A stretch of DNA of 64,000 nt from assembly GCA_033297075.1 (NCBI GenBank), contig MU858140.1:86708-150707 (forward strand), read 5' to 3'. This DNA is from Rhypophila decipiens (taxonomy: Eukaryota > Ascomycota > Sordariomycetes > Sordariales > Naviculisporaceae). A program made the translations under genes and the position numbers. The notes below the pieces were generated by a model. It ran no database searches. It had not been told where the DNA came from and worked only from the letters and a program-made list of their open reading frames with translations. This document shows positions 11,243 through 64,000 of this stretch, one piece after another; the stretch's first letter is position 1, and every line of letters begins with the position of its first letter.

Positions 11243-13984
11243 ATGGGGCTGAGAATCACGACTTGGAACGGTGAGAACTCTCCCTTGCTTGAACCGTGCT
11301 CACCAGTGTAGCTGACTTTGGGTAGTGAATGGCATAAGGTTCGCTTCAGTTCAGATTCATTCCTCTCGCTCTGGAATCAGAAACTCGGGTTGCTCACCAC
11401 TTCGCAGGAATCCGTTCAACTACCAGCCATGGCGAGAGACTCGCACGTTTCAGGTGAGAAATTGTTGGCTATCTTCTATTTGTATCAAGATCCTAACATC
11501 TCAAAGGCAATGTTCGATACTCTCGAGGCAGACATCGTCGTCATGCAAGAGACAAAGATTCAGCGAAAAGATCTTCAAGATGACATGGTCCTTGTGCCTG
11601 GTTGGGATGTCTACTTTAGTCTTCCTAGATACAAGAAAGGTACAACTTTGCGGTCTGTCTCCCACTCTATTTCGCGATCTAACTTCTTCCCGTTTGGCAG
11701 GTTACTCTGGAGTCGCCATTTATACCCGTTCTTCCAAATGCTGCCCCATTCGCGCCGAAGAGGGCATCACCGGAGTATTATGCCCACCTCGTTCATCCAC
11801 GAAATATCGAGATCTTCCACCTGAGCGACAGATTGGCGGGTATCCGAAAGAAGATCAACTCTCCTCGGAGCTGGACGAGGCGGTCTTGGACTCGGAGGGG
11901 CGCTGTGTTGTTCTCGAGTTTCCAGCTTTCGTCTTGATCGGCGTTTACTGTCCTGCTGCCAGGGATGATACTAGAACCGAGTTTCGCGAAAGTTTCCAAG
12001 AAGCACTCGACTTTCGCGTTCGAAACCTAGTCGCAATGGGCAAACAGGTCTTTCTCTGCGGTGATCTCAACATCATACGCTCTGGGTTGGACACCGCTGG
12101 CCTGCTCGAGAGCCTCCGCAAGGAAGGGATGTCACTCGACGACTACTTCTCCATGCCTTCACGTCGATTCCTCAACCAGCTGGTATTTGGGGGCGATGTG
12201 TTTGGGGACAGAGACGAAGGACGAGAGCAGCCTGTGATGTGGGATTTGTGCAGAGAATTCCACCCAGACCGCACTGGCATGTACACTTGTTGGGAGGTCA
12301 AGAAGAATGCCAGGCCAGGGAACTATGGCAGTCGAATTGACTATGTTCTGTGCACCTCTGGCATCAAAGACTGGTTCATTGACGCCAACATCCAGGAAGG
12401 CCTTCTCGGTTCTGACCATTGCCCAGTTTACGCTACCCTTTCTGACAACGTCACCAAAGATGGAGCGCCAATACCCATCACAGACCTGATGAACCCTGAG
12501 GGGATGTTTAAAGACGGTGTGCGCCAGCGCGAGTGGACGAACAAAGACTTACTTCCTCTCTCTGCAAAGCTTATTCCAGAATTCAACAACCGCCGAAGCA
12601 TTCGTGACATGTTTTCCAGAGCCTCTTCGATTTCCCAAACCAAGTTTCCTTCGACGCCCACAGGTAGCGAGGCGCAAAGCGGCGCCGCTGCTAAGGATGA
12701 GTTCTTGAGCGCTTCTTCGCTTGGAGATCAGTCGCAAGATACTGTCATCTCAGTACCACAGTCAACAAATCCAACTCCGCTAATCTCGGCCAGCTCGCAA
12801 TCCCAAAAAGCCAGCATACCCAAGCGGCAAGCCGAGGCAAGCACATCTTCCAACCGCCCCCAGAAGAAGACCAAAGCCTCACTCAGCAAAGAACCCTCGG
12901 GTAAATCAGGACCTGGGAATGGCCAGCGCACCCTGATGGGCTTCTTCAAGCCCAAGAATCCTCCGCCCAGTCCCAGTTCTGCCAAAGGACCAGAAAGCAC
13001 AAACAATGCGGCAGATCTTTCCGAACCGGCTTCTACACAAGTTTCCGTCCCCGGTAGTCTGGAAACAACACAATCCAACAACCAGGCATCCTCAGCGTCA
13101 GATAACACATTCGGGGACCTGTCTGGAGAGAGCAGCACCATAATCTCGCCGCAGAAGGAGAAAGCTTTCGTTGACCCGATTCAAAGCAAGGAGTCCTGGG
13201 CCAAGCTCCTTGGAAAGAGGATTCTTCCCAAATGCGAACATGGCGACGACTGCCAGACCATGACCACCAAGAAGCGTGGTGTTAACAGCGGTAAGTTAGC
13301 TGCTCTCCTCCCTTTGCTTTTTCTGTTCCCTCCTGCTCTTGCCTACGCTTGCGCTCTTCGCCGGCGCGTCTCGTGGGTCGGGCGGCTTCTCTGCTCCTCA
13401 AGCCCATAACAGCCTCCGTCTGCCCTCGCGCGCAAGACATACCGCACCCAACAATCTTGTGCCCACTCCCTCCATGGCAAGTTGTCTCTTCCAGAGGTGG
13501 TTATCCCTACCCTTCGCGCAGATTACCGCACCCAACATCTCCTACCCATTCTCTCCATGACAAGTTGTCTCTTTCAAAAGGCAGGCAGGCTACCCCTGCC
13601 CTTCTAACTCCCTTCCTCCACATCCCAAGCCCAAGCACAAAAGCACTATACCATTCTAGGTTGGCCCCATAACCTAGCCTCAAGCTAATGTCCCCCATCT
13701 CCACCACCGTTCCACAAAACCCGAAGCCGCAAGCGGCGGGCCGTTGATCCCCACACAAGTGTAACCTTCTCCAAGAACAAGACCAAGGATCCCCCAACCA
13801 AGCTTATTCCAACGACAAACAACAAACAAAGCTGACTCATCTTGCCCCTTTTTCTTCTCTTCCAGGCCGATCCTTCTACGTATGTCCCCGCCCGCTAGGT
13901 CCATCAGGCGACAAAGAAGTAGGCACAGAGTTTCGCTGTCGGACATTTATATGGAGCAGTGATTGGAGTGGTCGGCAGACATAG
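11243..13984 (+). CDS. APN2: AP endonuclease 2 (DNA base-excision repair)
   Basis: APN2 cleaves DNA at abasic sites and trims 3' blocks. Exons 11243-11270, 11326-11338, 11408-11453, 11507-11639, 11701-13290 and 13866-13984 give 642 aa. Exon 2 is a 13-nt microexon that rebuilds the conserved start (TTWNVNGIRNPFNYQPW). Exonuclease-endonuclease-phosphatase residues are visible: the Mg-binding Glu in VMQETKIQ, the DLNI, IDYVLC and SDHCPVY motifs. A PIP box, QRTLMGFF, lies in the linker at about 12925 and would bind PCNA. The C-terminus is a zf-GRF finger (KCEHGDDC, then FYVCPRP, then FRCRTFIWSSDW). Its codons are split by a 575-nt intron (13291-13865) holding a tandem duplication. APN2 is the standard MAT neighbour. 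Confidence 0.94.
13429..13604 (+). repeat. Tandem duplication inside the last APN2 intron
   Basis: Two imperfect copies, 13429-13514 and 13515-13604, both run from CGCGCA through TACCGCACCCAACA, then TCTCCATG.CAAGTTGTCTCT-like sequence, to CCCTGCCCTTC or CCCTACCCTTC. They differ by substitutions and small gaps. The duplication largely explains why this intron is far longer than the others in the gene. Confidence 0.75.
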
Positions 13985-15012
13985 CCAGAGTCAGAGAAGC
14001 GGCCAGGTTGGACTTGCTTCTCTCCCTCAAGGGATATATACATATATACAGTCTCATATATACATATATACAGTCTCATATATACATATATACAGTCTTG
14101 AGCGCTGTTATTGTGGGTTCATGGCTGATAAGAAGCACAAGATACAATACTCAGGTAGAGAAAGCCGTCTGCCTGCTTTCCAATGCATGGCGTATCTGTC
14201 TATCCATCTTTACTGTCCGACCTAGTATTGTCTCCCTGGGATGTGGTGTTCTTCGTGCGTTGAAACGCTGCCTCCATGAAATAGAAAATTGTCTCGATGG
14301 AGCATGCGTTCATCTCTTCCCATTCACCCCGTCCACCCATCGTCCCTGTAGTATTCCGTTGCGATATTGTCAACAACCAGTGGGTCCAGGGGGCGGCGCG
14401 GTGCTCAATTGACCTCAAATCTCTGGGCATTGGTGGAGAACGTCTTTCACAGTACGGCCCAGGTCTGGGATACCTGAAGCTGTCTATATCTCGGTCGGGG
14501 AAAACTGGGAAGCTGGAAAAGATAAAGGATAACTCTTCGTATAGTGTGCCCCCTGATGAAACGTGGACTGGTAGGAGGAACAGCTGGTGTAAGGCGGGTG
14601 AACACGGTGATTATATCCAGGTTAGGGAGAAGAGTTATGTTATATGCATTCATTGATTTACGGTATTCTGCTAGTCAGGGTTGTCCCTTTGAATGCCATT
14701 GATCTCTCTCATCTTATCAAATAAACCCCTAAAAGCTGCAATCCACCCAGAGGACTCCATTCTGGCAAGCGATAAAACATAGACCCCGATATCTAATGTT
14801 GTAACTAGGTCATGTTGGTGATTGTTTGTCGAGATTCCTAAGTTTTCCAACTGCATCATGCAGATAGGCACGACCACACTTTCCCTATCTGTAATGGAAA
14901 GACATGATCCTAGAAGCCAGCTATCCAGGATTGCTTGGTTGACATGAACTCCCTGTCTCCAAACATCAACCAAAGTCATTCGTCACACGGAAAGTTGAAT
15001 TCGACGGAAGTC
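13985..15012. other. Intergenic region between APN2 and MAT1-1-3
   Basis: About 1.0 kb is convergent between APN2 (+) and MAT1-1-3 (-). It holds the 22-bp tandem repeat at 14034-14099 and one 102-codon minus-strand open frame at 14979-14671 that I cannot assign to any family. Nothing else is seen. Confidence 0.4.
14034..14099 (+). repeat. Three tandem copies of a 22-bp A/T-rich unit
   Basis: The unit ATATATACATATATACAGTC + TC occurs at 14034-14055, 14056-14077 and 14078-14099. The first two are identical and the third ends TT instead of TC. It lies 50 bp after the APN2 stop, in its likely 3' untranslated or downstream region. Confidence 0.9.
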
Positions 15013-15719
15013 TTAGTGGCCCGAAAGAATGAGGCGCTCGGCGATATGCATTCCGCGGAGAATAGGACGGGGCCTGGCACCAGTGGGCTCGTGGACGCGT
15101 CGGGCTTCGTAACGGTATTCCGGATGCTTCTTTCGGTGACGCTCTTCCTCAACCCTGGAAAGTTGTTGGAAATGGGCCTTGACACGGGCCGACTCAGTGC
15201 GCCAAAGGCTCCCGACAATTTGGGCTGAGAAAAGTTAGCTGACGTATCTCGAGGGAGAGTTAGGGAACCTACAAATGCTTCCAGCAGTGAGGCTTGGGTT
15301 CTCAGTACGCAACTTCTTGCTCATCCACTGACGGTAAAGAATGAAGGAGTTTCGGGGTCTAGGGACACGAATGCCGACATCTGAATGGGTTAGATTATTG
15401 CACGAAGGTTTAGAGGAGAGGAAAGTCTTACCGTTGGCATCGTCCTCCAGAGGGATGGCATTGAAGTCCTCATTGTAGACACCGACATTGGCCATGTTGT
15501 CTCCGAGTATGTTGAATTGAGTGCCACTAGATATCGTCAGCTCAAGGTTGGAACTGTTAGAGAGGAATGGAGTTCTTACAAAGGGTCAAAGTTCTCAATG
15601 GCAAGTGGATCGGCGAAAGTGCTACCGATAGTGAACTCGAATGGGGCCGCAGTGACCTCGGGAACCGTCATTGGGACAGAGGAAATGTCGACAATAGCGG
15701 GTGACTGATTGGTATTCAT
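15013..15719 (-). CDS. MAT1-1-3: Mating-type protein MAT1-1-3 (HMG box)
   Basis: This is an HMG-box transcription factor of the MAT1-1 idiomorph, acting in sexual development. Exons 15719-15580, 15526-15432, 15380-15273 and 15224-15013 give 184 aa with all splice sites GT-AG. The MATA-type HMG box spans about residues 83-158. It begins [20 protein letters not shown], continues through [19 protein letters not shown], and ends in the basic [16 protein letters not shown]. The third intron splits the Ser codon after GSI with one base before the intron, the position typical of MAT HMG genes and shared with MAT1-2-1 here. The start at 15719 requires the first exon, which has no in-frame stop and joins cleanly. 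It is divergent from MAT1-1-2, with 543 bp between starts. Confidence 0.92.
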
Positions 15720-16262
15720 GGTGAAGATCAAGAAAGGAATGCAATTGAGGTGCAAAGAATATTTATTGTGCTGCGGGTTGCGAATTAATTGGCTGTGTTG
15801 TCGACTGTTGCGTTGCTCGAGGTGGAAATGTGTGGGAATTTAGGAAGAGAGTTGGTTTGTGGTTTGGGAAAAGGTTTTTGAGGGGTGACGACACAGAGAG
15901 GAAGGGACGGAAAAGTTTTTGCGGTTGGTGCAGAAACGTGAGGGTTGCCATCAGCGAACAATCGGAAGGTGCGACTGGTCTGATGAAGGAGCTGCCCCGC
16001 TGGTGGGAAGCAATTGTGAGGTTGAGATGACAGATGCTGCTTAGCATTGTTCTCATTACACCGCCCGCCCAACTGAAGAACAATCATAACGGAAACTGAC
16101 TTTGGTGGAGACTGCTGCCTTGTACTCCGTATGAGCTCTTTAAATATCTCGTTCCTCCTATGCTGATCCAATTCCTTACCGATAAACCATCTCTAACCTC
16201 ACCGTCTACTTGTCAGAACCAAATCTGAAAGATAAACGACAAATAGCAGAGTGGCCTCCATC
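15720..16262. promoter_or_regulatory. Shared divergent promoter of MAT1-1-3 and MAT1-1-2
   Basis: 543 bp separate the start codons of the two divergent MAT1-1 genes. No coding exon is supported. Both genes therefore probably share upstream control. I see no site I can name with confidence. Confidence 0.45.
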
Positions 16263-17732
16263 ATGGAAAACCAAAACCAATCAACCCCTACTGGACCGGC
16301 ATCTCATGCTTCTTCGAGTGTCACCAATACGCAGAACAAGGAAACTCTCGACAGGGTATGTTCAAATTCTCCCGGACATAGAAATGCTTGAGAGCCTGCT
16401 ACTGACAAATAAACAACCCAATAGATGCTGAGTCGTTTTACCGCCGCTATAGTCCGAAAGCCAATCGAGAATAATATCGAGGAGTTCCAAGCTGCTCTGG
16501 CGGAATTCTTCCAGAAAACGGCAGTGTTCTTGCACAGCTCCAAGATCATCAACATCTATGGTGCGTCGACGATCATGGATGACCATACTATTGTTGATGC
16601 TGCCAACCGCTTGATCCAATCTTCTGAATTTATAATCTATTATCTCACATTTATGGGTGAGAAAACCGGTTTGCCATCAGGAGGTGATCCGCCCTTGGAA
16701 TCGGAGGTGACCGCCGCTCGCGAGTGGGCAAAGATTCTTCTCAACGCATTCAAAGCCTTGAAGAAGGTAGAGAGATCTGCAGGTGGTCTTCAAGGACTCA
16801 AGCCAAGTTACTGGGTCTCGGTCAAGGACGGCAAGATCATGTATCACAAACGTTCAGGCGAGTGGGTTGATCTCACTGTCGAACACCCAGCTCTTCGGAA
16901 CCCAGGAACACAGTGGCACAAGTGGTTTACAGGCAGCAATCAAGCCATCAACGATCGGTGCCAATTTTCTAACCAATTCCGGCCCAACTTTTCGGTCCTC
17001 TTTCCCAGCACAGCGAATTTTGTTCCTCAGTATTTGGCCACACATTTTCGTCACTTCGATGCCGCCTTCAACCATGTAAGTAAATCGAACTCGATTTAGT
17101 TTCCAAGCTAACATCTTCTACAGACCAATTGCAAAGTTATCGATGAAGGACTGAGACTCGTAAGTGACCGAATCCCTCTTTCTCGTGGACGTGTACTTAC
17201 AAGTTTAGGCCGACGTTTCCGCCCTCTTTGCCATAGCCGTTGATAATTGGATGGACCCTGAGCATAATGGGTTCACCAGCCGGCCATCATTTAACCCGCG
17301 CCAAAACTCCTTGGTGAGTTTCTCTCTGAGAACCTGAGCGTCAAACATTCCACTGACCGCTTCTCTTTATAGAGCATTCGTCCTCAGTCCACCACGTCTG
17401 GTCAACTGCCCTTCGAAGAGCTGAACTTCACTATCAACCAGAGCGCAATGGACGGCACTTTTATCTGGGCCAATGAGTACCCTCAGATACGCAGGGAGGT
17501 CCGCATCACTGCATATCATTATTACTCTGACTGTTGCGACTACGACACGAATTACGACGATAACTGGCGGGGTAGCCGCGAATGGAATGAGGCCCAGAGC
17601 CTTCGTGGTCTTCAAGTCTATATGAGTGATTCTGACGCCGATGCCCTTGTGGAGCAGCAGGAGGAGGAGGACTTGTACGGAGAGGACGATGATGATGATA
17701 TCTGTGACGGTGAAGACATGGATGCGCTCTAG
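16263..17732 (+). CDS. MAT1-1-2: Mating-type protein MAT1-1-2
   Basis: This is a MAT1-1 idiomorph protein of Sordariomycete type, needed for fruiting-body development in the species studied; its biochemical function is not known. Five exons (16263-16355, 16425-17075, 17124-17159, 17209-17313, 17373-17732) join in phase 0 throughout and give 414 aa. Visible family-like features are the helical N-terminal half, the central KPSYWVSVKDGK and HPALRNPG stretch (the His-Pro-Gly region that names the HPG domain), and aromatic conserved blocks. The C-terminus is a strongly acidic tail (EQQEEEDLYGEDDDDD). Assignment rests on this resemblance, its length and its place between MAT1-1-3 and MAT1-1-1, which is the usual order. 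The short third exon (36 nt) encodes TNCKVIDEGLRL. Confidence 0.88.
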
Positions 17733-18630
17733 ATGCGCAGCAAGGGCAGAAACATTTCAAATGGTTGAGTAAGATCTGGGAACTCCGAGGGAGGATGAGT
17801 TAGATGCTTAAAAACATTAACTGCCCGTTAAACACCGAAATGAGAATCCATGCTATAACCAAAGTAATGATAACTGGCATTGTGGACATGATAGCGTGAC
17901 CTTACGCACGATGCAGCCTTATCAGCCCTTCCATTCGTATACCGTCAATTTGACGAAATAATATAATAAGCGGACTGGCCTTTCGAAAGATGTTGGACAC
18001 TACCAAAGAGCACACCAGTGAAATTCGGAGTATCTTATATTAAGATAAGTTAAGATAAGAAGCTTGGATACAAATGCATTTCGTCACTTGCGGTTTCTTG
18101 TGTACAAACCGCAATGCCATATAACTATTTTATGTACATGTATCGTGCGGCCCACATTTCTGGTGGCAAATGTGTGACACTACCTTGAATGGTGGCGCCC
18201 AGGAGACCAAAGGCAACAGGAATTCTGAAAGCAATGACAATTTAATAGATATGATTGGAAGAATGTCTCACTGGGCAGAATAAAACTTAGTTCTCCTCGA
18301 AATATTTCTACATGCAACAGTTTTAAATTCTAGGTATGCAAAGGATTGGAAGGTCAGTTTTGGATGCCAGAAGTATTAAATGTACGCAAAGGTGACGGAT
18401 GACAAGGAGGTTACAGGGATAAATTTATGAGGGGTGGCTTTAGTGGGCTTCCATTGGTCAAAGGAGAGGTTGTCGAAGAGGTTCTTTGTTGGAATGAGGA
18501 ATTTCGGTACAAAAGCACAACCTTACTCCTAATCATCTAACGCCGTCCCCTACCTTTATCCATATACTGATTTCTTGGAAGGGAACTCATCCACTGACCT
18601 TAGGAACCTGAAGTGCTTCAGACCTAGGAA
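17733..18630. other. Intergenic region between MAT1-1-2 and MAT1-1-1
   Basis: About 900 bp hold the 3' end of MAT1-1-2 and the promoter of MAT1-1-1. A short TAAGATAAG-type repetition is seen near 18040-18060. No gene or RNA is recognised. Confidence 0.4.
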
Positions 18631-19741
18631 ATGAATTCCTTGATCACCACTTCTTCCAGGAACGAGATTTCAATGGTTGGCGTGGATACTCGAACGGCGG
18701 TTCAAGGTCAAGGTCAAGTCGGGCAAGTCACAGCGAAGAAAAAAGTGAACGGGTTTATGGGATTTCGAAGTAGGTCAGGTATCACGTTGTTTGCACTGTC
18801 TCCAAGCTAATTTTGTCTAGCATACTATTCGTCCATCTTCTCGCAATTTCCTCAGAGGGGACGGTCTCCATTATTGACCCAGCTATGGAGGCAAGATCCG
18901 TTTCATAACGAATGGGATTTCCTGTGTGCCGTCTACTCTGCTATCCGGTCGTTTCTAGATGAAGAGAACCTCTCGTTCAAAGACTGGATCAATTCCGCTG
19001 CCACTCACCTGGGCATCATCTCCAGAGACAAGTACATGGAGGCACTTGGCTGGCAACTCGAACGCTGCGACGACGGAACGAACAAACTACTGCGTACGAT
19101 GACATCTCCTATCAAGAATTGTATTCAGCCCACGAACGGACTGGGACTCTTTAACAGCTGCCTGTCTGCCGGTCTTCAGGTCAACAATGCGAGGCCAATC
19201 ATCTCTAAGTTATCGGATCTAAGCTTCGATGTTATTTGCATGACAACGCAGCCCGCTCATATACCAACTCGATCTCGCTTCGCAACTAGCCCCTGTAAGA
19301 CCAATAGGAAGAAGGCTGGAACGCCCAGCCACGCTATCCCGGCATTCTTACCAGGTACACAGTGCCTTCCCATTGTTGAAAGCGATGGGGTTGGAATCGA
19401 TGAGATCAATGGATTTTTCTACCCGGACTATTCGCAACCCTACGAAGCTCTTGACACTGAGACTTTTTTCGCAATGCATGGCTCCAATATCGATGCAATG
19501 CTCGGCACCATTCTGAACGACGAGAATGTTGGGCATCCAGATATCAGTGGTTCGAATGACGGTAGTTTCTTCGATATGAGCCTTCACATCGACTGCTCGG
19601 CTCTAGGTAAGAAGATATGTTCAACCAAAGACAAGAATAAGTTAACCATGCATGTTAGGCTATGAAAGTGGACATCTACTGCAGGATGTTGAGGTGGAAT
19701 ATCCGTATAGCCACGGCTATACTGGGCCGAATGGGCATTAG
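18631..19741 (+). CDS. MAT1-1-1: Mating-type protein MAT1-1-1 (alpha-box transcription factor)
   Basis: This is the alpha-box regulator that defines MAT1-1 identity, controlling pheromone and receptor genes and fertilisation. Exons 18631-18769, 18821-19606 and 19659-19741 give 335 aa. The alpha box starts at about residue 36 with KKKVNGFMGFRTYYS. It continues through LLTQLWRQDPFHNEWDFLC, then LGIISRDKYMEALGW, with the trailing ARPIISKLSDLSFDVICM motif. The first intron (51 nt) splits the codon after GFR, a position known for alpha-box genes. The final 52-nt intron was placed because reading through would replace the C-terminus with an unrelated tail. No frameshift or premature stop is seen. 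It is convergent with MAT1-2-1, with direct repeat copy A between them. Confidence 0.95.
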
Positions 19742-21274
19742 ACGTGTCAACCCACAGAACACCCCTTTTAGTACTCCCTGACGGCGAGGAGAAGCTATCA
19801 ACGTTTCACACGGCACTACGGATAGAATAAGCGGTGCAACAAATACCGAAATTAATGATTTCTGAGAATGGGTAAGATGGCTTGTACCACAGGTCAGGTG
19901 CAAGAATAGCTTAAGATTCAAGTTTAAGTTTCTCCTTTCAAAATCTATTATAGCGGAGATGCTTCTCATTATTCAGTACGCGAATAATACCAACCAGATT
20001 CGTTGACTGTCATACGGTAAATGTTCAGTCACCTCTGAATGTGACCTGTCGTCTGGATAAACAACATCCGGGCGCAAACCCCTGCAATATGCATGCAGCT
20101 GAAGCAAAGTAGTCCAGCCGCCGCTACCAGGGTAGGGTTTAGCTAGCTAGTACATATTGGGCTACCTGCAGTGTGGCGCACCGATTTTCATGTCGATCTC
20201 TGTGTGGGGCACCTTGGAAGTGCGCGCACAGGCAGCCGAACAACTCCACAACTTACCAACTCCGTCCAGGTAAACGGGTAACCCGTACCTAGTGTACGGA
20301 TACCGGTACTCCCACAGTCCACATTTCAAGATAGGTGATCAAGTGTCATCAAGTGATTCATACCCGTGCACGTGCCATGAACCGAAGTTTCCGCACAATC
20401 TGATCGCTTGGTTTTATCATCGGCTTGCTTCCTCACTTTGCATGCTCGGAATTGACCACATATCCTGACTCAACCAAGAAACTTCACCAGTGAGGATGGC
20501 GAATGATCTCTAAAGCTTTCGTCACCAACAGACACCAAACCCAGCTCCGGGCGTGTGAGCAATTCCAGGGTTTCTGGCCCATGCAGTCATTTGATCCCTG
20601 TACGTACATCACTTATCGACCGGTAGTAAACAAAGATCCCTTTTCGGATAGCATTCCCGTAACTTAGTCTACGCTTAACTAGTGAGGTAAGAGCAATCTT
20701 CCCTGTGGTTGCTAGAAGGGGAAGGTTTGGTGGGGTTGGCCCAGCTGGGCCAGCTCCTTCTTTCAGCCACGTACTAGGGCGAGATGGATGTTTTGATAGT
20801 TGTTTCAAGGCTTTCTGCCGTTGTCTGGCTCTTATTACACAGCATGCCCGGGGGAGTATGTCGATTTGATTCGTTGAAGACGAGAATTTTAGCAAACAAC
20901 ATTTTTTGTTTTATTCGTATAGCTTTCCTGAACGGCAAATAGTAAAGCACTTGGACTTAATTAGCCAATGCTGCCGAGAACCCTTTGGACCGGTCCGACG
21001 ATGCATACCCCCGTCTACGCACTGAAGCGTATCCTGACGACGGTCTACTTCAAGCCCATGGAAAAGTTAGGGCACGTATTGTTAGACTTAGGAAATTCGT
21101 TCACTCATACATCACTAAACAGAAAGGTTTGAGTGTTAGTATGATCATGAGGATAGTCTCATTGGGAACCAGCAGACACTCACCATTATTCATAAAGACA
21201 CATGGCTAGCTTCTTCTTGAGCTCAAGCACAGACAGCCATAAGAGTCCAAAGTCGTCAAGTCGTTGTGTGCATT
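19742..21274. other. Convergent MAT1-1-1 / MAT1-2-1 intergenic region
   Basis: Besides direct repeat copy A (20041-21028), the flanks 19742-20040 and 21029-21274 hold the 3' regions of the two convergent genes. No gene or RNA is recognised. Confidence 0.5.
20041..21028 (+). repeat. Direct repeat copy A, between MAT1-1-1 and MAT1-2-1
   Basis: This segment matches 24191-25370 in the same orientation. It opens with GTGACCTGTCGTCTGGATAA and the next six bases, identical in both copies. Other matching landmarks, in order, are TGCAGTGTGGCGCAC, GTACCTAGTGTACG, CGTCACCAACAGACA, GAGCAATCTTCCCTGT, AGAAGGGGAAGGTTT, CAGCCACGTACT, AGTATGTCGAT, GACGAGAATTTTAGCAAA, GGCAAATAGTAAAGCACT and ACCGGTCCGACGAT. 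In one 55-base stretch (from TAACTAGT, near 20676) I count 49 matches, with five of six differences being transitions. Copy A lacks about 190 bp present in copy B. No coding sequence is seen. Confidence 0.9.
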
Positions 21275-22672
21275 TTAGTTGCCGGCATTGAAGTCGAAGA
21301 AATCGTCAAGACGAGCCTGGGGGTAATCCCAGTTTGTCTCGAGAGCGTTTTGCGGCTGCTCATTGGTGCCAAAGGTCATCGGCATATCGTTGAATGACAT
21401 TGCGGTAGGCAGAGTCTCATTGTGAATCTGAGAAAGTTGAGCAGCGTGAAAGTCATGGTGGGATGCAACAACAGACTGGAGGTTCTCATTGCGGATAACA
21501 GTCGTGACCGGGGTCGGAAAGTAGGGCAAGTCCTGGATGACCGTGGTCTCGACGGGACCCTGATGGACATTTGTCACACCTGGGAATTGAGTGATGATGG
21601 CATTCTCAACATCCCGGGGAAGCGAATGAGGAACCGGGACATCGGTGGACGACATCTGGATCGAGGACGCCAGCTGAGCGCGGCGGCGAAGTTGAGTCGG
21701 GATGCGGCCAGGTCGGGCTCTTCCAAGGACAGCCTGGTTACGTGCACGGCGCTGAATTTCAGACGGACGACGAGGGTTGTAACGATAGCCAGGGTGCATC
21801 TCCAGGAAACGTTTCTTCAGGAGAGTCGCAGCCAGATTGTAGGCTTGACGAACTTCAGGAATCTCGTTGTGCCAGAGAGCGCCCACCATAACAGCTAGAG
21901 AATTATTAGTGAGTGACCAATTGCAAATTTAGAAGGGGGGTACTTGAGGGGGTGACTTACAGATCTCGTTGTTATGAATATTGGGGTAAACTTCCTTAAC
22001 CTGAGTCGCTTTGTCCTTGCGGTACAGGATGAAGGGATTAGGAGGACGGCGTGGTCCACGATTAGTGGTACCTTGCTGGCCATCATCAATCTGGTACTGA
22101 GCGAGAAAGTCCGGTCCAAGATAATGGGCAATGTAGTTCTCATCGCTGTTGTCCTTAGCCGGTGCCGTGTCCTGAACAGTTGATTGAACAGGTGGGTTGT
22201 TGCTGAGAAGCTGGTCGAAAACGTTCGGAGTGACAGGAATCATTTCCCCGGTCTCACCAAGCTCAAACCTAGCATCGGCAACGGAATCGTCGTCCAATCT
22301 GTTGAAATCCAAGAGGAACGATCCAGCAAACCGCGCGGACTCAATGACGCGCTTCGGGCCAAAAACGACCATGTCATTGAACTCAACGTGAATGACACTG
22401 GAAACAGGCTCTCCAAGGAATTTCCTACATACAGCATTAGCAAACGATAGGTCAAAATGAATGGGAATGGACACTTACGAAAATTCGGCCAGCACAAGAG
22501 CTTTGGCCTCATCATCAATGTCGCGGAAATCGCAGGCATCAATTGCGGCAATTTTCTCCTTGTTCCATATGCGGAATTGGGTGACAAGAATGTTCCAGGT
22601 CTTGTTGGCCTGAGCGCGAATGATTGCAGATCTGTCGACAGTCGACATGGTCATTGCCTCGATTTGGGCCAT
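21275..22672 (-). CDS. MAT1-2-1: Mating-type protein MAT1-2-1 (HMG box)
   Basis: This is the HMG-box regulator that defines MAT1-2 identity. Exons 22672-22479, 22424-21961 and 21894-21275 give 425 aa. The HMG box spans about residues 188-259. It begins GPRRPPNPFILYRKDKATQV, continues NIHNNEISVMVGALWHNE, and ends FLEMHPGYRYNPRRPSE with a basic run. The second intron splits the Ser codon of NNEIS after one base, the hallmark MAT1-2-1 intron position. The N-terminal region of about 187 residues and a C-terminal tail of about 165 make this longer than the usual Fusarium-type protein. The start at 22672 was chosen as the first of the clustered Met codons after a low-complexity Ser/Phe/Thr leader, but the frame stays open upstream to an ATG at 23059. 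The gene is intact. Confidence 0.94.
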
Positions 22673-23012
22673 CTTGACAGAGTCGTGAGGGATGGGAAAA
22701 TCGATGTTGCAGGATAAGCGAGGTAAAAATTTCCAATAATTGAAATTGAGAACAAATGAAAAGGAGTGCGGTGGTGAGAAATTTGTTTGCTCGTCGGTTG
22801 TTGGCTGTCGAGAAGAATTGGTGGTTGAGGTTGTGCAGAAGTTGGAAAAGTTGTGGGTTGGAATTGAGAAAAGTTTTGGGGTTAAGAATTTGAGGGAGAG
22901 TGTTGGAGGGGTAGGGCACAAGAAATTCTTTTGCTGCCTATTATCTTCTTTGTCGCTTCCCAGGTGAGAAAGGAACGCAGTTGCCAGGATGGATTGCAAG
23001 AAACGGCGGGGG

Positions 23013-23020
23013 AGTTTATA
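23013..23020 (-). promoter_or_regulatory. Possible TATA box of MAT1-2-1
   Basis: On the minus strand the sequence reads CTATAAAC here, followed by a long pyrimidine-rich stretch before the ATG at 22672. Position and composition fit a promoter with a leader of about 300 nt. This is pattern only; no transcript start is known. Confidence 0.25.
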
Positions 23021-24190
23021 GGCGGACAATTGAGAGAGGAGATCCACCAAGCAGAACAACAGCTATTGAGCGGACTTGAGATGACACAATAGTTCAATAG
23101 CCCATTTTCGCAGGGTCAATGTTTTTTTCGTAGAGCTTCTGCTTTGCCTCCAAGTTCGACCCAATTCTCACTTTCTCTAGGTTGGCTGACCAGCCCCAGT
23201 TTTTCGTGATTAGACATCCGATGACATTGGGTGCCAGAGCTCCCATATTCTATGCCAGTATTATGTTTTAGCATATACAAAACACTCCGTATGATCTGAG
23301 ATCTCGTGTGAATATCACTCCCCCTTCATGGGGTATACTGTTCTTGTTCGTTGACAGCAACTGTAATGCTGAAGTCCCGTGCATCGCCCAGGAGCACTAC
23401 GACTCGTCTAATACACGAGGATCCGGACTCGGAGGCTTCAACCGCACCAGGAAAAAGAGTTTGTCTAAAGTAACATGAAGCATGTTCTTTGGGAAGTGGC
23501 TGATGATAATGTAACATCTAGCACCTGGTCACCAAAGTCCAGCTGTTTACGAGACAGGGTTCTTGCTGAGATGAGAAATCGATATATTATGGGGAAAATA
23601 TACTTGATAATGTGAGTGATAGAAGCGGGTTTAGATGAGCCCCTGTGCTGCGGACTTTAAGAATCCCTGTTAGGAGTCGCAGAAGATAATAGCTGGACAT
23701 GTTGAGTGATAGACTGACCATCATGGATATCTGGTGAGCCAGCTAAGCATAACACACACTTAAAGAAGAACTGCAATGAAGTTTTGAGAAAATCGGCAGA
23801 AAATTGTAAGAGATGGACTCGAAGGGATCAGCACAGCACGTTGATAAGGGCTACCTTGGGCTGAAACGAAAAGGAAAATAACAGCAAAACTCAGTTATGC
23901 TATTCTGTTTACCGTGCTTTGTCGGAGCATTTTAATCGCTAGCCAGCGGCACCTCTCATGAGGTCCTATAAGATGAAGTAGTAAGTAGAATTGAGGAACT
24001 GGAGAAGCGCGATAGAAGCCTATATCAAACATATATGGCCATTGGGGAAGATGAGAGGCAGAATAGACTATACCCCATTGGAATGTGAGATAGCTTCTCC
24101 ATGGTGTAGAGAGCATCCGTGAGTGAGACATCCATAGGACGTTGTACACACCACACTATTCGAATTCCTAAAATGAAATTCGAAGCTGGT

Positions 24191-25370
24191 GTGACCTGTC
24201 GTCTGGATAAACAACACCTGCCCCTGCAATATGCAACCAATATGCCAAGTCGGTAGTTCAGCCGCAAGGATTACTGGTATCTGCAGTGTGGCGCACTGAC
24301 TATGGGACTTTCCAGGTTGCCGATCTTTGTGTGGGGCACTTGGAAGTACCGTCGCGCTTAGCCATTTCTTCATACAGTCCCTGCTAGATTTCACAATAAC
24401 ACCAGGATTGAATTACCTGCCATACGAGGATAATGATACCATCAAGCAATCCTTAAAGTCACTGCTGCTTTGACCAGCTAAGACGATTACCCATGCACAG
24501 CACTTCACAAATACGTACGTGTACCTAGTGTACGAACCGTGTCGGTGGATTTGGACCCTGTTCCCGTTGAATCAGCAATGGGTGGGTCCCGCACTGGCAA
24601 CCCGAACGGCTCCACACTGGCCAGTGCCGTTCCTCCTGTTTTAGGGCTGATCCTTTGACATGTGCCCCACATGACACTGGATACCAATCCTACCAGATCC
24701 CGCGATCCACATACGGAGTATCAAGTGATGGCATTTCGAAGAAGTTTCCGCAAGCCCAAACCCACTCGGTCGTTTATTAATTCAATTAGAGGCTTTCTCA
24801 CCCTGTATACTAGATATTTGGCCACATATCCGGCTCAACCCAAAAAACTTACCGGTGAGGATGGCGGATGATCTCGTCACCAACAGACAGCAAGCTCAGC
24901 TCCGGGTATGTAGGCAATTTCAGGCTTTCTACCCTTATCCGGTCATTTAATCCCTGCACGTGCATCGCTCACCGACCGGTAGCAAACAAAGATGCGTTTT
25001 CCGTCCTTCTTCTGGACATCGGATAGCACTCCCGTAACTCGGTCCACACCTAACTAGTAAGGGAAGAGCAATCTTCCCTGTAGTTGCCAGAAGGGGAAGG
25101 TTTAATAGGGTCGGCCCAGCTCCTCCTTTCAGCCACGTACTGGGGCGAGATGGATATTTTGTTTCAAAGCTCTTTGCTGGCTCTTGTTACGCGGCATACC
25201 CAGAGGAGTATGTCGATCTAATTCGTTAACGACGAGAATTTTAGCAAATACTTTTATTCTATAGCTTTCCTGAGCGGCAAATAGTAAAGCACTCGGACTT
25301 GATTAGTTAATACCGCCGAGAACTCTTTAGACCGGTCCGACGATATATACCCCCGTCCACACACTAAAGC
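24191..25370 (+). repeat. Direct repeat copy B, on the SLA2 side of MAT1-2-1
   Basis: This is the partner of copy A (20041-21028) in the same orientation. Left ends are 4150 bp apart and right ends 4342 bp apart, so the pair encloses all of MAT1-2-1 and its promoter. Sequence immediately outside both ends (AGCTGGT before, AGGGAGTGACG after) does not match copy A, which sets the boundaries. Copy B has about 190 bp more, mainly between the GGGGCACTTGGAAGT and GTACCTAGTGTACG landmarks and near ATACGGAGTATCAAGTGATG. Confidence 0.9.
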
Positions 25371-28300
25371 AGGGAGTGACGAGATTGAACCCGTTCCAGG
25401 TGCAGATACACCAACTGGCACACTATCGATAAATGATGCCTGTTCGATGCCCACAAATTGTTTGGTGAGAACCACAGACAGGTGTCGGTATCCGTGGCCC
25501 ACCAATCGATCATGCATGTTGGCGGCTGAACCACCCCCACGGAAGATTGCATGCGGGACCTTGCACCAACAACGGTGACGAAGCTTCCCCATGTGCATTG
25601 GCGCTGCTGTGAGTTGCAAATGTTTGTCAAACTTGCGATGAATTCAGCGCCTATTCCCGCGACCTCGATCTGATGATAACCAAACATGCCGCTCACAGTG
25701 TGCAGGTGGTATGATGGTTGAGAACGGAGGGAAATGCTTTGTAGGTTGACACACGGCAGGGCCCAGATCCAAGTTTGTGAGCCCATCCCGGTCGAATCTC
25801 AGGATCTTGAGGCCCTTTCCAGGTTGATGGTTTGACGGGCTGACGGCAGCTCTATCAGACCGGCTGGTTCTTTGTTTCTCGGATCTTCCCCCTTCTTGCC
25901 CATCCCGTCGTACACGTTGGCTACCACTCTTTCTTTGAACATAACCATGCCGCTATGCGTAATCTCACCTATCAAGAAGCCTTGAATTGAAGAGCAGGCA
26001 AGTTCCGACAGCTCTTTCTATGGTTAGTTGTGGCTGATTTTTTAAGGGAAATTTTTGACAAGTCGGAAGCGATGCGAAACTGGGCTGAATATTTAGCAAT
26101 TTCATATTGGCATTCCAGCTCTTGTATCGACTCGCATTCCTCTGAGCTCAACTCGCACATGCCTTAATTGGTAGACGAGATCCCCCGAATTCTTCAAGAA
26201 TAGAGATTCATGGAATGCCAAAGTTGCCATCATTACAGTAGGACTGAACCATAAATAAATGAGGAGCTCCGCCTGAGGAAAACGTGCAAGAGTCGACAAT
26301 GACTGCTCACCAGGCCAGGTAAGACGTAAACCAACTAAAGCGACAAGAGATGAGAACCTAGACCCAAAAAAACACTCCACCGGCGATGAACGTTGCACCC
26401 TCCGGTTGGAGAGACATGTCTTGATCGAGATAAGGTCTCGAAATCCTCGTCCTTGCTCGCTGCCGAACATCATCGGGCCGCAATGCCTCACAAAAAGAGG
26501 TGACATGAGCCAGGCCCGGGCTTTCCTTTCCAGCCCACAACCTTGCGGTTGTAAATCTCCAGAAGTGAAGACACCATGTTTAGATACCGTACAGCACGTG
26601 GCGGAGATAGAGCCGGTAGGTAGATAGACATATGTAAGGTGTCGTGCAGTAGCCAGTAGTGTAGTGTAAAAAGTCCATTCTTCTTTCCCGATCTGGAAGA
26701 TATTCCAATCCGGCCCGGCCCCGCCCTCACATATCAAAGAAACGGAACTGCGGCGGCGGAACCCATACTGAGACATCAAAGTGGCCGACCGAGCGAATGC
26801 CGATCACGGGTACCAGTCTGTCTGATAAGATTGAACTGGTTCCAAGCTGGAAGATATCCTCCCTGGAATCAAATCGGCGGGAGCCCCCGATTTGGGGGAA
26901 GGGACCAAGTTCAGATCACAGCTATATAAGCCCCTTTTTCGGGTCCCCTCTCAACCAATCGTGATGATATCCCTCCAATTCGAAAAGCTCGAATGGCTCA
27001 ATTGGGGGAAGGAGCGCTCTTGGCCACTAGAACTGGGTGGGCGGATCTAATGAGAAATCCGATCAGCTCTAGCGTTGAAGAAGGTCATCCTTTCGAAACG
27101 GGTTGGGAACGGTAAGCGAGAAAAGTCAGCGAGAGCTTTCTTTTTTGCTCTCTTTCCTTCATTCATTCATTGCGAATTATATTTTCACTCCATGCCTTTT
27201 TATCATCTACCCAGGCAATGAATAAAATAATGGCCAGTTTTTAGTAAGGATTTGCACTAAAAAGCCCACATTCTCTTTTGTTCACCACCGCTACAATGAC
27301 CATGAAGGAGGCAATCCAGCCAGGAAAGAAACGTCGGCCGTTGTTTGTTTTCAGCCATTCTCAAGCCCACGATCGCCACAGCATGACAACAAAACCTCAT
27401 CATGTGGCTTGAACACTTGTCAGTGCTAACAAAAGAGCCACGCCAGGTCCAAGTCCGGACAAAGAAAAAGATGCGACATCTCCGCCGCCGCCTGCCGCCG
27501 CCGATGAACAAAACGGACCGACACATCGGCGTACGCCTTACCTAATAGCCCAAGAAGTAAGACGGCACGGGACCGAGACAAGTTCGGGACAGAGCGATGA
27601 ACCCACGCGGCGCGGCAAGAAACAAAGAAAAAGGTGATCCGCCAAGGAGACGACCAGAAACAAAATCTTTGGTTTAAAACCACACCTCTTTCTCCGTTTG
27701 CAAAACTCCGGACCGTCCAGACGGGTAAAATTTATGTCATCATCACGTACGTCAAGACAAAACATGGAAACAGAGACAAGGAGGAGGAAGGGGGCAATGG
27801 CTTGGTATGGTAAAGTCTAAGAAAGAACATGGGACAGCAGACAGACGATCTTCGGGCCAGACCTGATATCAAACTGGCTAGGCTTCTCTTCGTTACGGCG
27901 GAATTTCCCGATGGAGATCAAAGTGAAATGGATACAGCATGAGTCTTTGCACAAGCAAGTCTCGCCAAGATGTGCGGTTCCCCAAGACTCAATCTTGTTA
28001 CGAGTTGGCGGAAAGATCAAGCAAGGTAAGACGATGAGAAAAAAAAGGTATAGTTTTTGGGTGATATGTAATTATGTACAAACTAAAATGAACAAAGGAA
28101 TAGCTTGGCCAAGCGTAGGATAGATAAGACAAATAGGTGTCGAGAAAGAAAAGGGGGAAAGAAAACTATGCCGTAGAAGCTAAGCTAAATTTGGCAATAA
28201 GTAAACAAATTGGAGCCGCATGAAGCTATGCGACCAAGGAAGTGACACCGGAAGGCTGGCGGGTTGAGCAAAAGTATTAAGCCGGAATTGTGAGGCGGAA

Positions 28301-28530
28301 ATGATCGAATTTGTCTGTCCCCTGCTGGGAGAAGCCAAGTCCATATCCTCAGAGTGAAGAACAAGACGTTTGTGACCTCATGGCACGGCGAAGTGAGCCA
28401 CGTATCATGACGAGACACTCGGTGGCAGATTAACATCGAATGTACGGGAGCAGCGTCCGAAAAGTCAAGGGCTAGCTGTCGGCGAATCTGAATATCACCC
28501 AGCGACAGAAGTAAACATATCGAGTTCCCT

Positions 28531-31500
28531 CTACTCCTCCTGGTAGGAGATCTTGCGCATCTCGCCGAGCCTTGTGCGGGCGTCCTGCAATGCTCTCTCG
28601 AGCTTGACGATCTCGACCTAATAGCAGAAGCCAGTGTTAGTCATTCAAATTGGACCATGTAGATGTGCGATACGAAAGGAAAGGCTGCAGAGAGGGAAAG
28701 ATGGAAAAGACAAGACGTACCTGCTGCTCCATCTCCTTGACCTTGAACTCGTACTGGCCCAACTTGGAGTAATCCACCTGTTCCTCATCATTGCTGCGCT
28801 CCTTGAGCAGGGCCTCCACCTGCCGGACAAGTGCACGGCATGCGGCATTGACTGCCTTGCTGGCCTGCTCCAGAGTCTCCTGGCTCTTGCTCATGAAGCC
28901 GGCCTTGACACGGCTGGCTGCCACGAGTTGAGCAGTCGAGGCCGCCACGTTATTGGAGGCCACAATGAGCTGCTCTGGGCTCGCACGGCCAGAGATGATA
29001 CCGTCGGCAGTCTCAATAAGTGTGTTGGTCGACGACGCGACTGCCTTGGCGGCGGAAATAAGACCTTCGGTCCACCTGTTGTTTTTCTTGTAGAAAGCTG
29101 TCCTTGACGAGGTGCCTCGGCCAGCCTGGACGATTTCTTGCTGCGTCACGGTGGCGGCCTTGATAAGCTGCGCAATTGCATTGGTAATCGCCATAGCAGC
29201 ATCCAGGATGGAATCGTTGACCTTCAGCTCGTATGTAGTATACCCATCGCGCGGCTTGTTCTTGAGCTTGGCAAGACGAGCGGCGGCGGCGGCGATGGCA
29301 TCGGCGGCCTTGCTGAGTTCATTGTCAACAAGCTCGCCCAGATCACCCTTGTTGGCCAACTTGCCGAAGCCTGGTGCGAATGCTTCGACGAGCTTGTTCA
29401 ACGACTGCAGCTTCATCTGGACATCATTGTTGCAGTTGATGACGACATCAGTCTTCTCAATGGGATCCATGCCTTCAAGTCGGAAGCTCAGCAAGCTTCT
29501 GAAGAACTTGACGGTCGCGTGCGCGGACTGACGGGTGCCGTTGATCAAAGAGTCTCCCCTTCTCTCGTCCGTGGCGAGACGGGTCAAGCCCTTGGTGTTG
29601 ATGCACACATCAGCGATGGCACCCGCAAACACGTTCACGTTCTTGATAAGATCCGCGTGTGTGCTATTGGGCCCATCAGCAATGTAGTTGTTGAATGATG
29701 TCGCAAATTCCATAGCACTGGCAGTCGCCTTCTCGATTTGCGAAAGCACATAAGAAGGCGAGGCGTTCTGGTTTCCGGCCTGCATGGTTGAGTCAAGCTC
29801 ATACATGGCATCGTCAACACGTTGAACTCCAGCCTGGAGCACCGAATCAATGATCTCGTTGAACTTCTCCAGCTGGGCAAGGATCAATGCATCTAGCTGG
29901 CCATCCAAAGCTTCATCGGTGGTTCCCTGGTTGTTCTTGAGCTCATTAAGCTCAATCAGAGTTTGGTCCATACCGGCCTTGTAGACCTCTAGCTCTTCTT
30001 CTTTATCGCGGAGCAGCTGCTCAAGATCGGTGCTGCCGTCACGGAGCTTAGCCTGCGCCTCCTCGAGCGCTCTCGACTTGTTACGCAGCGCCTCTTCGAG
30101 GTCGGCGACCTCACGATTGTACTTGTGCAGCATGGTAGATAGCTCGTTGCCCTTGCTTCTCTCCATGTTATCGATTTGATCACGAGCCATCCGAAGCTCC
30201 CGTTTCAGCTTCTCTACCTCGTCTTTCTGGGATCCCTGCAGCCTATCCTTCTCATGAAGAGCACGGTCACGCTCGCGGATCATATCGGCGAGTTCAAGGT
30301 TCTTGGTCTTGATCTCGCGCTCGAGCTTCTCTCGTCGGTCAATCGCTTCCTGGGCGGAGGCGGCCTTGAGTTGCACAGCCTTGAACTTTTGAAGCAGATC
30401 GAGATGTTCATGGCGCAGCTGAGAATAAAGCTTCGCCAAAGCTTCGTATTTGGTCCTCCAGGTGTTCACTTGCTCCTGTAATGCCCTGATCTGGTCGTCC
30501 CTGCTAGAGATCTGCTGACCATAGTTGTTCTGGAGGTTCTGGAGTTCACCTTCGAGCCCCTTCACACGCTGGTCAAACTGCTGAAGCATAAGCTGGTCTC
30601 GCTCGTATTGAGCTCGGGCGTTCAGGTTTTCTTGTTCCAGCTCGGCAAGTCTTCCCTGCGTCTGCCACTGCGCTTGCCGGGCCAGCAACGCCTCCTGTTC
30701 CCGCTGCTGCTCCTCCATGAGGCGACGCTGCTGTTCATCAAAGTCACGTTGCGCCTGAAGCTGAGCTTGCTGCTGTGCGAGAAGGGCGGCTTGCTGTTGA
30801 GCTTGCAAGACCCGTTGCTGCTCGGCATACTCACGGTCTTGCCTGTCCAGCTCGCTCTTCCAAAACTCGTTGATCTCATCCGGTTCTTCCGATTTGGGCG
30901 GCACAGGAACAGGGGTGGGCGGCTTCTCGATCTCCTGTTTAGGGCGGGCGGGAAGAGCGGGGGCAGATTCGTCCTCTGATAGCAGATTCGGGGGATCCTG
31001 CGGCAGCTTTGGAATCGTGATCAAACTTGTGAGATAGCGAAGATTTGAGCATTCGTAGTAATATTTGACGAGCCGGTAATGCTGGGCATCGTATCTCTGC
31101 CGGAGAGGCTCCAAGGCATCGTTGTCACCGGTCGTCGAATGCATTGCTCGAAGCATGCTGGTGATGAACTTGTAGATGCCGTAGCTCTCGGTGACGAGCG
31201 GGACCAGGGCTGAAATCCTGCATTCATTGTTGCCAACATTGCGGAAATGCGAAAAAATGAGCTTCTGAAACTGGTCAATTTTGTCCTGTAGGGTCATGAG
31301 ATCTGTAATGGTCTCATAGCCTTCATTGGGGTCGTTGATTGCCTTGAGGCTGATGTATTCCTCATACTCAAAGGTTCCGTTGAACTCTGGATGTTGCTGG
31401 TGGAAGGAAAGCTTCGCGAGCAAGTAGTAGACGTATTCCTTGATCAGGGGGGCATATCCTCGCATGCCCTCGCCGGCCATCCCGCGATTCAAGCTGTCGA

Positions 31501-31876
31501 TCCATCCCCTGTTCGCCATTGCCTCCTTCAGTGTTATCGGGTGACCCTCTTGCAGAACCTTGTGAATCGTGATCAAAGCCTTGAAGGTCTGAACCTCGTC
31601 GGCGAGGATGGGCTGGACCTTCATGCCCGCCCAGAAGGACTGGGAGGACTTGTGGTCCCATGTGTAGACAATACAGCTCCTCACATGTTTCCGCTTCGGG
31701 GCAGTCTCCTCGACGCTGGTGGCCTTCCGAATGTTGATGGCGAGCTCGGCCTCGGATCTGCGCGGCATTTTGGGTCAGTCGCTGGACATGAGAAGAACAC
31801 GGGAGGCGCATTCCTGGTCGGCCAGAGAGCCGGGAAAGACGTACTTTGTATGGTCGAGGCTGCGGACGGTAGCCAT
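28531..31876 (-). CDS. SLA2: Endocytic adaptor SLA2 (ANTH and THATCH domains)
   Basis: SLA2/Hip1R couples PI(4,5)P2 membrane and clathrin coats to actin during endocytosis at the cell cortex. Exons 31876-31845, 31757-28721 and 28617-28531 give 1051 aa. The first exon (MATVRSLDHTK) was found by joining its donor at 31844 to the acceptor before SEAELAINIRKATS. The ANTH domain (about 12-285) includes PKRKHVRSCIVYTWDHKSS and LADEVQTFKALITIHKVLQEG. A Gln-rich linker and a long coiled coil (about 300-640) follow. The C-terminal THATCH/I-LWEQ actin-binding module ends in TRLGEMRKISYQEE. SLA2 is the standard right-hand MAT neighbour, with its 3' end facing the locus. I see no truncation. Confidence 0.96.
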
Positions 31877-61856: not shown

Positions 61857-63289
61857 GGCAACGAACCTTCAACGGGGCGTCAGTAAGAGCCAGCCAATAT
61901 CGCCAACTAAAACACCGTTGACTCGTTTAAGGGGTACTGGTAGGTCTTGGAGCAGGCGAGACAGTGCTATTGTTTGCAGCTAATCTCCCATAACTGAGCA
62001 TTGGATGAAAGAAAAGGTACTGGACAGATTGACTCTACAGCAGATAACCTTATGTCCATATGAACAAGTAAAGACTGCTGCATCCATGTGACCACCATGT
62101 CTACCTGAGGTAGCAGTGGGGAGTTGTAGACATGCACCAGGCTCAGACGAATGAAGCAAGACGGAAACATACGAGTAATCCAGATTGGGCAATCAGCAAA
62201 GGACCACACCAGCAGCTGGCGGGTCCTTGGAAGAAAAATCCCCGCTTTGCTGGAGCTCCTTTCCAAAATTTTACCCACGTGGGTTGAAAGGGAATCCAAT
62301 TGAAATTTTGGTGAGCAAAGTGCAAGCAGAGAAGTAAGAGGCCGCTTCTCCGGTCGACTCGGGGCTCAGAAGCGAGGGAATGCGGCGGGCAGGTCCGATT
62401 GCTGAGCGCTTAAAATCCGATCCCGATAATTGAAAGCCGTGTTCGGATATAATGGAGGACAGAAAAGTCTGGCGGCGACTGGACAGTGAGAGTTGGGCGA
62501 AAGTCCTCGGATCGCGATGATATCAACAATAAACCATGTTGATGAGAGCAACACAACGACAACAACGTGGGATGAGGGCTGATTAAGATGAAGAAAGAGG
62601 AGAGCGGGCAGAATGGTGCGCCTGCAGTACGATGGACCCCGGAGGAGCAAAAGGTGTGTGCAACTCTGCATCTGTGCAGCGACATGGATGGGGCAGGCTT
62701 AACTGCGACGGGAAAGGCGTCCCCCAAGATTTGGACAGGGGTGCGGCACTTTATTGGGTCTGCCTCGACGTGACCTGCGCAACGGGTAACTACGCGATTG
62801 GATACGGATATGGAGAGAAGGCCATTTCCATTTCAGACCCATCTTGAAGTTCATGTGCGAGGGGCCAAAGAGGCAAGAATCACCGCAATTTTTTCAACAA
62901 AAAGCCAATTCCCCCGTTTTGACAGGCTTCACAGGCTCCAACGACAACAAACGCTTCGTTTCTAGCTACTAGACCGTGCTCAGTCACTAGTGTCACGGCT
63001 GGACGGGTCCATGGGCCATAGCTCCGCCTTGCCTTGCTCCACCCGAACTACGCCGCAGCCATTGGACCCGGGCAGCATATCAGTTCTCGTGTTGCAGGAC
63101 TGGGCAACTGGTGAGCTAAAAGGCGACAAGTCCTCCACAAGGACTGGGTCGCTTCCATTTGTTGTCTTTTGTGCAAACTTAGTCTCAGGTTCAGACCTTT
63201 TTCTCGTTCGCGCCCCTCGCTCCGCTCGGGAACCCTCACTGCACTTGGGGACGTACTACTATTTAGCCCTATTTCTACACAGCTACTAC
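61857..63289. other. Upstream region of SEC2, no gene seen
   Basis: It holds the SEC2 promoter and about 1 kb more of ordinary base composition. Short open frames here (for example 62588-62773) have no family resemblance. TGTCACG at 62991 resembles the start of some fungal LTRs, but no matching second LTR or TG...CA pair was found. Confidence 0.35.
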
Positions 63290-63905
63290 TACTATATTAA
63301 TATACTCTAGGTTATTCTTCTAGGTTCTTACGAGAAAAAGGTCTAAGTCTTATTCGCACTTTTTAACTACCTTTTTTATAGATTTTAAAAACTTATAAAT
63401 TAAAAATACTATTATTTTAATTTCTAATATTACTATATATTATATTAATAAGTAAAATATATACTAAAGATTATTATATTTATTTCTATCTTTTTATATT
63501 ATTGTTAGGTATTTTAGTTAGTTATATTCTTAAAGTCTTATTTATAAAGAGCCTATTCTATTATTTTATTATTAAACTTCAAGGATATTATATCTTAACT
63601 TTTGTATTTTTATCGAAAAAACTATTAAAATACTATACTATAATAAATAAGCCTAGTTTAACTTTAGAATATATTAATAAGCTAATTACTATACGAAGTA
63701 GTTATAAGGATCTAAAAAATAGAGTTATTTTAATTACTTCTATATAGTAAATAATTAATAATATATTATTATTTATATCCTAATTACTTTACAAAGAATA
63801 TTAAGTATTATTTATTAAGTCTATTATTACCTATATTCTAAATCTTAACTATTAGAATACTATATTTCTTTAAAAACTCTAAAATAAATAACTTTAGTCT
63901 AAGTA
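63290..63905. other. A+T-rich block, RIP-like
   Basis: From about 63290 the sequence changes abruptly to almost pure A and T with scattered C and G, dense in TA and stop codons, and returns to normal composition at about 63905. This is typical of repeats degraded by repeat-induced point mutation. No original element can be recognised. Confidence 0.7.
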
Positions 63906-64000
63906 ATGTCACGATCGTACTATTACGGCTGTTACATACACTATACATACCAATCCTAGAGCGGATTCTTCCGTTCTAGAATCGTGCCCTTTTGTGGGTT

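Follow-up and report, generated by a model that had tools for sequence, protein, structure and literature searches.

The question raised by the mating-type locus of Rhypophila decipiens (Ascomycota, Sordariales, Naviculisporaceae) is whether the two direct repeats that enclose its MAT1-2-1 gene make up a working device for one-way mating-type switching or are a trace of the way in which the locus was assembled. The locus lies in a stretch of 64,000 nucleotides (the window; assembly GCA_033297075.1, contig MU858140.1, positions 86,708 to 150,707 of the forward strand), in which copy A of the repeat occupies positions 20041..21028 and copy B positions 24191..25370, both on the forward strand. 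A first-pass annotation of the window had given the coordinates, the common orientation of the copies and the enclosure of MAT1-2-1 correctly, as attested by blastn and by the intact model of the gene, and had drawn a parallel to one-way mating-type switching. We consider it rather probable (roughly 0.6) that the locus is a fusion scar mutated by repeat-induced point mutation (RIP), and not a working switch, and that the fungus is a stable primary homothallic.

Copy A starts 300 bp past the stop codon of MAT1-1-1 and lies about 250 bp past the 3′ end of MAT1-2-1, and copy B, nearer to SLA2, lies about 1.5 kb upstream of where MAT1-2-1 starts. The homology between the copies is real, but it falls short of the originally described repeats of about 1 kb: the shared sequence amounts to about 780 bp, split between a left block of about 180 bp and a right block of about 600 bp, with an unlike middle between them. 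The left block of copy A (20041..20221, forward strand), which opens with a 26-bp exact tract, has its partner at 24191-24347; here blastn aligns 20041-20093 with 24191-24235 (83% across 53 columns) and 20163-20221 with 24278-24347 (75% across 71 columns). The middle measures 205 bp in copy A (20222..20426, forward strand) versus 444 bp in copy B (24348-24791), and its similarity is scarcely above chance, the score being matched by 1 of 200 shuffles. The right block (20427..21028 in copy A and 24792..25370 in copy B, both forward) is aligned by blastn at 76.4% across 624 columns (E = 9e-132), with an identity of 77% when gaps are counted and of 86.5% at ungapped sites. The local score of copy A against copy B is 542, versus a best of 31 for 36 random other stretches of the window, and the likeness ends at the outer limits of the copies: the sequences about 150 bp beyond either end are not alike (scores matched by 13 of 200 and 15 of 200 shuffles). 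The longest exact tract between the copies is 26 bp and the second longest 19 bp. Comparison of the two copies in full, which had been recommended as a check, shows that they are diverged and homologous in two blocks. The offsets between them, 4150 and 4342 bp, agree with the predicted excision of 4.15-4.34 kb, and the geometry is also as proposed, in that exchange between A and B would take out MAT1-2-1 and keep all MAT1-1 genes. When each copy is searched against the 45.7 Mb assembly, these two places alone are recovered (at least two copies, the count being a lower bound), and the flanking DNA on either side and the DNA between the copies are each found in one place. The possibility that the repeats conceal a gene or an RNA was considered and rejected: five open reading frames in and beside the copies have no Pfam match, and the region 19600-28700 has no Rfam match at gathering scores.

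What is new here, and was missed by the first-pass annotation, is the kind of divergence between the copies around MAT1-2-1: the differences in the larger, right block are mostly transitions biased toward CpA, a pattern that resembles RIP. The substitutions in this block comprise 66 transitions and 9 transversions (66/75 transitions), or 62 and 4, respectively, away from gap edges (62/66 transitions), and two other alignment settings give ratios of 68:12 and 69:13. C-to-T differences, counted on both strands and in both copies with the direction of the transitions unpolarised, occur at 28 of the 127 cytosines in CpA versus 38 of the 405 other cytosines (Fisher p = 0.0003), and over six alignment and edge settings the p value for CpA enrichment ranges from 0.00014 to 0.00076. 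The C-bearing member of the differing sites is evenly distributed (33 in copy A and 33 in copy B), and the identity of the right block calculated from transversions only is 98.4%. The right block of copy B, with TA/AT of 1.17 and (CA+TG)/(AC+GT) of 0.91, passes both of the usual RIP index thresholds, and in a ranking of 1268 windows of 600 bp according to the difference between the indices, the one nearest to copy B ranks 16 and the one nearest to copy A ranks 58. The short segment between the MAT1-1-1 stop codon and copy A (19741-20040) has mildly RIP-like indices of 0.96 and 0.95, which may reflect spill-over or small-sample noise.

The genome contains two cytosine methyltransferase genes (L014 and L015, on contigs C185 and C9). 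The first of these, a frame of 771 aa, is a candidate that we take to be RID-like on account of its length and a motif. The other is close to PDB 9bap (1207.6 bits; listed as DNA (cytosine-5-)-methyltransferase) and is presumably of the DIM-2 kind. The locus thus resembles RIP of linked duplications in Neurospora in having paired copies, transitions that prefer CpA, changes in both copies, and RID- and DIM-2-like genes in the genome, whereas it differs in that the change is light, stands out in just one portion of the repeat and is situated within a mating-type locus. Elsewhere in the window, the last 750 bp (63251-64000) are strongly RIP-like, with a GC content of 18-25%, TA/AT of 1.3-1.5 and (CA+TG)/(AC+GT) of 0.13-0.42, and probably mark the border of a stretch of repeats mutated by RIP. 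A 5.8S rRNA was found neither by its Rfam family nor by a conserved stretch, and the rDNA may be absent from the assembly or have been missed.

The position of the copies relative to the genes suggests how the duplication came about. The order in the window is COX6A exon, APN2-like gene, MAT1-1-3, MAT1-1-2, MAT1-1-1, copy A, MAT1-2-1, copy B and SLA2. MAT1-1-1 (18673..19741, forward strand; 321 aa, alpha-box) and MAT1-2-1 (21275..22672, reverse strand; 425 aa, HMG box), each with two introns and with splice sites placed by hand in the present analysis, are both intact and, together with MAT1-1-2 and MAT1-1-3, form one locus between APN2 and SLA2. Both mating-type regions are followed, toward SLA2, by the duplicated segment, whereas the APN2-side flank was not found a second time beside MAT1-2-1, as would fit a single break within the left end of MAT1-2; jointly, these two features yield the order that results from unequal exchange between chromosomes of the MAT1-1 and MAT1-2 types. 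A search near MAT1-2-1 for a duplicate of the APN2-side flank or for fragments of MAT1-1 genes returned nothing beyond one weak match, to part of MAT1-1-2 at 21937-21827 (E = 0.41); MAT1-1-3 and MAT1-2-1 share HMG-to-HMG similarity, as expected.

Under the fusion scenario, the starting point would be a heterothallic ancestor with separate MAT1-1 and MAT1-2 idiomorphs. The MAT1-2 idiomorph, which by its putative borders spans at most about 3.16 kb (21029-24190), would have come to lie next to the MAT1-1 idiomorph through unequal exchange or because a MAT1-2 circle integrated there, and the SLA2-side flank would have been duplicated to yield copies A and B. The fused locus would have been homothallic and, at the same time, a loop-out cassette. 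Sexual cycles would then have exposed the copies, which shared a nucleus, to RIP, with C-to-T changes, chiefly at CpA, building up in both until few exact tracts were left. Sequence divergence penalises recombination, and with the loss of the long exact tracts needed for exchange, loop-out of MAT1-2-1 would now be very rare, so that the gene is probably fixed in place. The divergence of the copies also supports the earlier remark that exchange may be rare or past. Given RIP-mutated copies and a loop-out that has probably ended, homothallism is probably stable.

Unequal crossing-over is the stated origin of linked MAT genes in several fungi (PMC13401452), and related unequal recombination is reported for heterothallic loci (PMC3583454, PMC5386874). 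According to the first of these sources, homothallics with joined idiomorphs include Clonostachys rosea, Fusarium graminearum, Neurospora pannonica, Neurospora terricola and Cochliobolus luttrellii (PMC13401452), and the present locus resembles them in combining genes of MAT1-1 and of MAT1-2 in a single tandem arrangement. The flanking apn2 and sla2 genes are common to C. rosea and R. decipiens, whereas the DNA between the genes is described as AT-rich and repetitive in C. rosea and consists here of a readable duplicated flank with RIP-like decay around MAT1-2-1. The account of the Chrysoporthe MAT loci in PMC10298223, in the parts consulted, offers no match to the present locus.

Several observations weigh against the fusion scar reading, and in particular against the part assigned to RIP. 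The right block of copy A, with indices of 0.91 and 1.16, passes just one of the two thresholds. The CpA bias is concentrated in 20721-21028 (p from 2e-5 to 1.6e-4) and is not significant in 20427-20720 (p from 0.11 to 0.41); in the left block a CpA bias is absent, and two of six settings give a deficit (0/55, p = 0.013). The initial test for RIP, on a forced alignment of the whole copies, detected no bias (30/242 versus 59/625, p = 0.21). This result is superseded by that for the right block because forced whole alignments reach 71-74% ungapped identity even when one sequence is shuffled, but the right-block test returns to data that had already been tested once and has to be weighed accordingly. 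In favour of RIP, none of 600 simulated context-free pairs reached the observed CpA ratio of 2.37, and of 400 pairs in which transitions were simulated at 2:1 or 3:1, only 1 reached the observed transition share, but these simulations included neither indels nor mutation context and had no neutral spectrum of the species as a control. Furthermore, the right block contains 19 gaps, and since RIP makes no gaps, ordinary decay also acted on it. The anatomy of the locus, the number of copies recovered from the assembly, the intact genes, the bias of the differences toward transitions and CpA, and the two methyltransferase genes are observed; the unequal exchange, the borders of the idiomorphs, RIP as the cause, the loss of excision and the mating behaviour are inferred from them.

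Of the alternatives, the one that survives best is a former switching system, in which the repeats, once more alike, would have excised MAT1-2-1 until they were disarmed by RIP. The topology fits, and the transversion-only identity of the right block implies that the copies would have been much more alike before the transitions. However, there is no sign that excision ever served reproduction, the MAT1-1-1 gene requires no repair by excision, and fusion accounts for this topology with no need for a phase of switching, so we consider this history unlikely. Lower still in our estimation stands a local duplication of an intergenic segment, such as a regulatory or boundary element, after the mating types had become linked. 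Both copies do reside in DNA without a recognised gene, next to MAT genes; yet fusion predicts just such an arrangement, in which each mating-type region has a copy toward SLA2, and RIP-like change in both copies is unlike conserved function, which renders this explanation improbable.

A working one-way switch has in its favour the direct orientation of the repeats, the fact that MAT1-2-1 is the sole MAT gene that they enclose, and a deletion of about 4.2 kb, which is comparable to the 2.9-3.6 kb reported for known cases. The switching repeats are described as 115 bp and identical in Chromocrea spinulosa (PMC5608430), 260 bp and identical in Ceratocystis fimbriata (PMC3961304), 146 bp and identical in Sclerotinia trifoliorum (PMC4891775), and 84 bp in Ceratocystis albifundus (PMC13334188). 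The locus of R. decipiens is like those of these four fungi, as reported, in that MAT1-1 and MAT1-2 are linked and direct repeats bracket MAT1-2-1, but its repeats are longer, diverged, RIP-like and located downstream of an intact MAT1-1-1. Of the precedents named in the first-pass annotation, Chromocrea and Ceratocystis are among these fungi, whereas the mention of Huntiella is doubtful, given that a paper on H. moniliformis concerns, by its title, unisexual reproduction.

Two features of these precedents speak against active switching. The repeats are reported to be identical in three cases, whereas here they share 77% identity with gaps and no exact tract above 26 bp, and regular exchange would be expected to keep the copies alike. 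In addition, the typical position of the MAT1-2 genes is inside MAT1-1-1, which is restored by their deletion (introduction of PMC13334188), and in C. albifundus they part an intact MAT1-1-1 from its promoter (PMC13334188), whereas in R. decipiens MAT1-1-1 is unsplit and lies upstream of both repeats. This distinction is not universal, as the 2014 paper on C. fimbriata places the single leftover repeat between MAT1-1-1 and MAT1-1-2 (PMC3961304). The genetic signals of switching have been given as identical repeats and/or MAT1-1-1 fragments (PMC10569646), and neither is present at this locus. The flanks and the enclosed DNA occur in one place each, no contig with a deletion junction is found in the assembly, and only one form of the locus was recovered there, although a minor form could be hidden by the assembly process. 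Nor do inverted repeats offer a means of flipping the segment: among 19 pairs in 13400-28700, the longest reaches merely 33 nt at 73% identity. Taken with the divergence of the copies, the unsplit MAT1-1-1 and the single form of the locus speak against a working system, which we regard as very improbable. Least credible of all is a pair of transposable elements or other dispersed repeats, which the first-pass annotation had named as the outcome if many copies existed elsewhere: RIP-like mutation is usual for such repeats, but the searches of the assembly recovered the sequence in two places only and none of the open reading frames tried has a coding match.

The other genes of the window agree with this description of the locus. 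The APN2-like exon that forms the left anchor (11316..13409, forward strand) encodes an endonuclease/exonuclease/phosphatase domain and is named from that domain and its position; the COX6A exon lies at 9.7-10.3 kb. MAT1-1-3 (15013..15719, reverse strand), spliced by hand, encodes an HMG box, and MAT1-1-2 (16263..17732, forward strand) consists of several exons with approximate borders and matches PF17043 of Pfam at 25.9 bits, slightly below the cut-off of 26.3. The right anchor is the main exon of SLA2 (28637..31774, reverse strand), identified by Pfam and by a match to solved SLA2 structures. Pfam supports the alpha-box (MATalpha_HMGbox, on the main exon of MAT1-1-1), the HMG boxes, and the ANTH and I/LWEQ domains at the locus. 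The gene set is indicative of a sordariomycete. A search of the assembly for MAT1-1-1 turned up no further copy, and MAT1-2-1 has just two weak HMG-box matches in the rest of the assembly, on other contigs (frames L008 and L009). Directly after APN2 (13440-13576), there is a short direct repeat of two units of about 54 bp that are 85% alike.

A broader and distinctly more tentative proposition is that RIP determines if a fused mating-type locus ends up as a switch or as a lock. Whenever a flank is duplicated by fusion, a loop-out cassette would result; a repeat above the RIP length limit would be mutated and MAT1-2 locked in, and only repeats short enough to escape RIP would stay identical and could support one-way switching. 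In Neurospora, the length limit for linked copies is about 400 bp, and an identity limit also exists. The switcher repeats of 84, 115, 146 and 260 bp, as reported, all fall below this Neurospora limit, and the block of about 600 bp in R. decipiens looks RIP-scarred, although the four switchers are a partial tally to which other species could be added. Terms for RIP are absent from the main texts of PMC3961304, PMC5608430 and PMC13334188, a statement made without a dedicated literature search for the sorting idea, and both "RIP" and "point mutation" are absent from the main text of PMC4891775, which again is no literature-wide search. The proposition suggests a simple testable rule, in which the length of the repeat is set against RIP to tell which fused loci turn into switches.

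If the fusion scar reading is correct, the repeats record how a self-fertile locus was assembled and why MAT1-2-1 stayed in it. RIP needs both copies of a repeat in one nucleus before meiosis, and the marks of RIP would accordingly show past sexual cycles, such that the sexual history of strains with this locus would be readable without any cross. RIP acting in a mating-type locus would change whether MAT1-2-1 can be lost: a genome-defence process of the sexual cycle would itself have removed the means of losing the gene.

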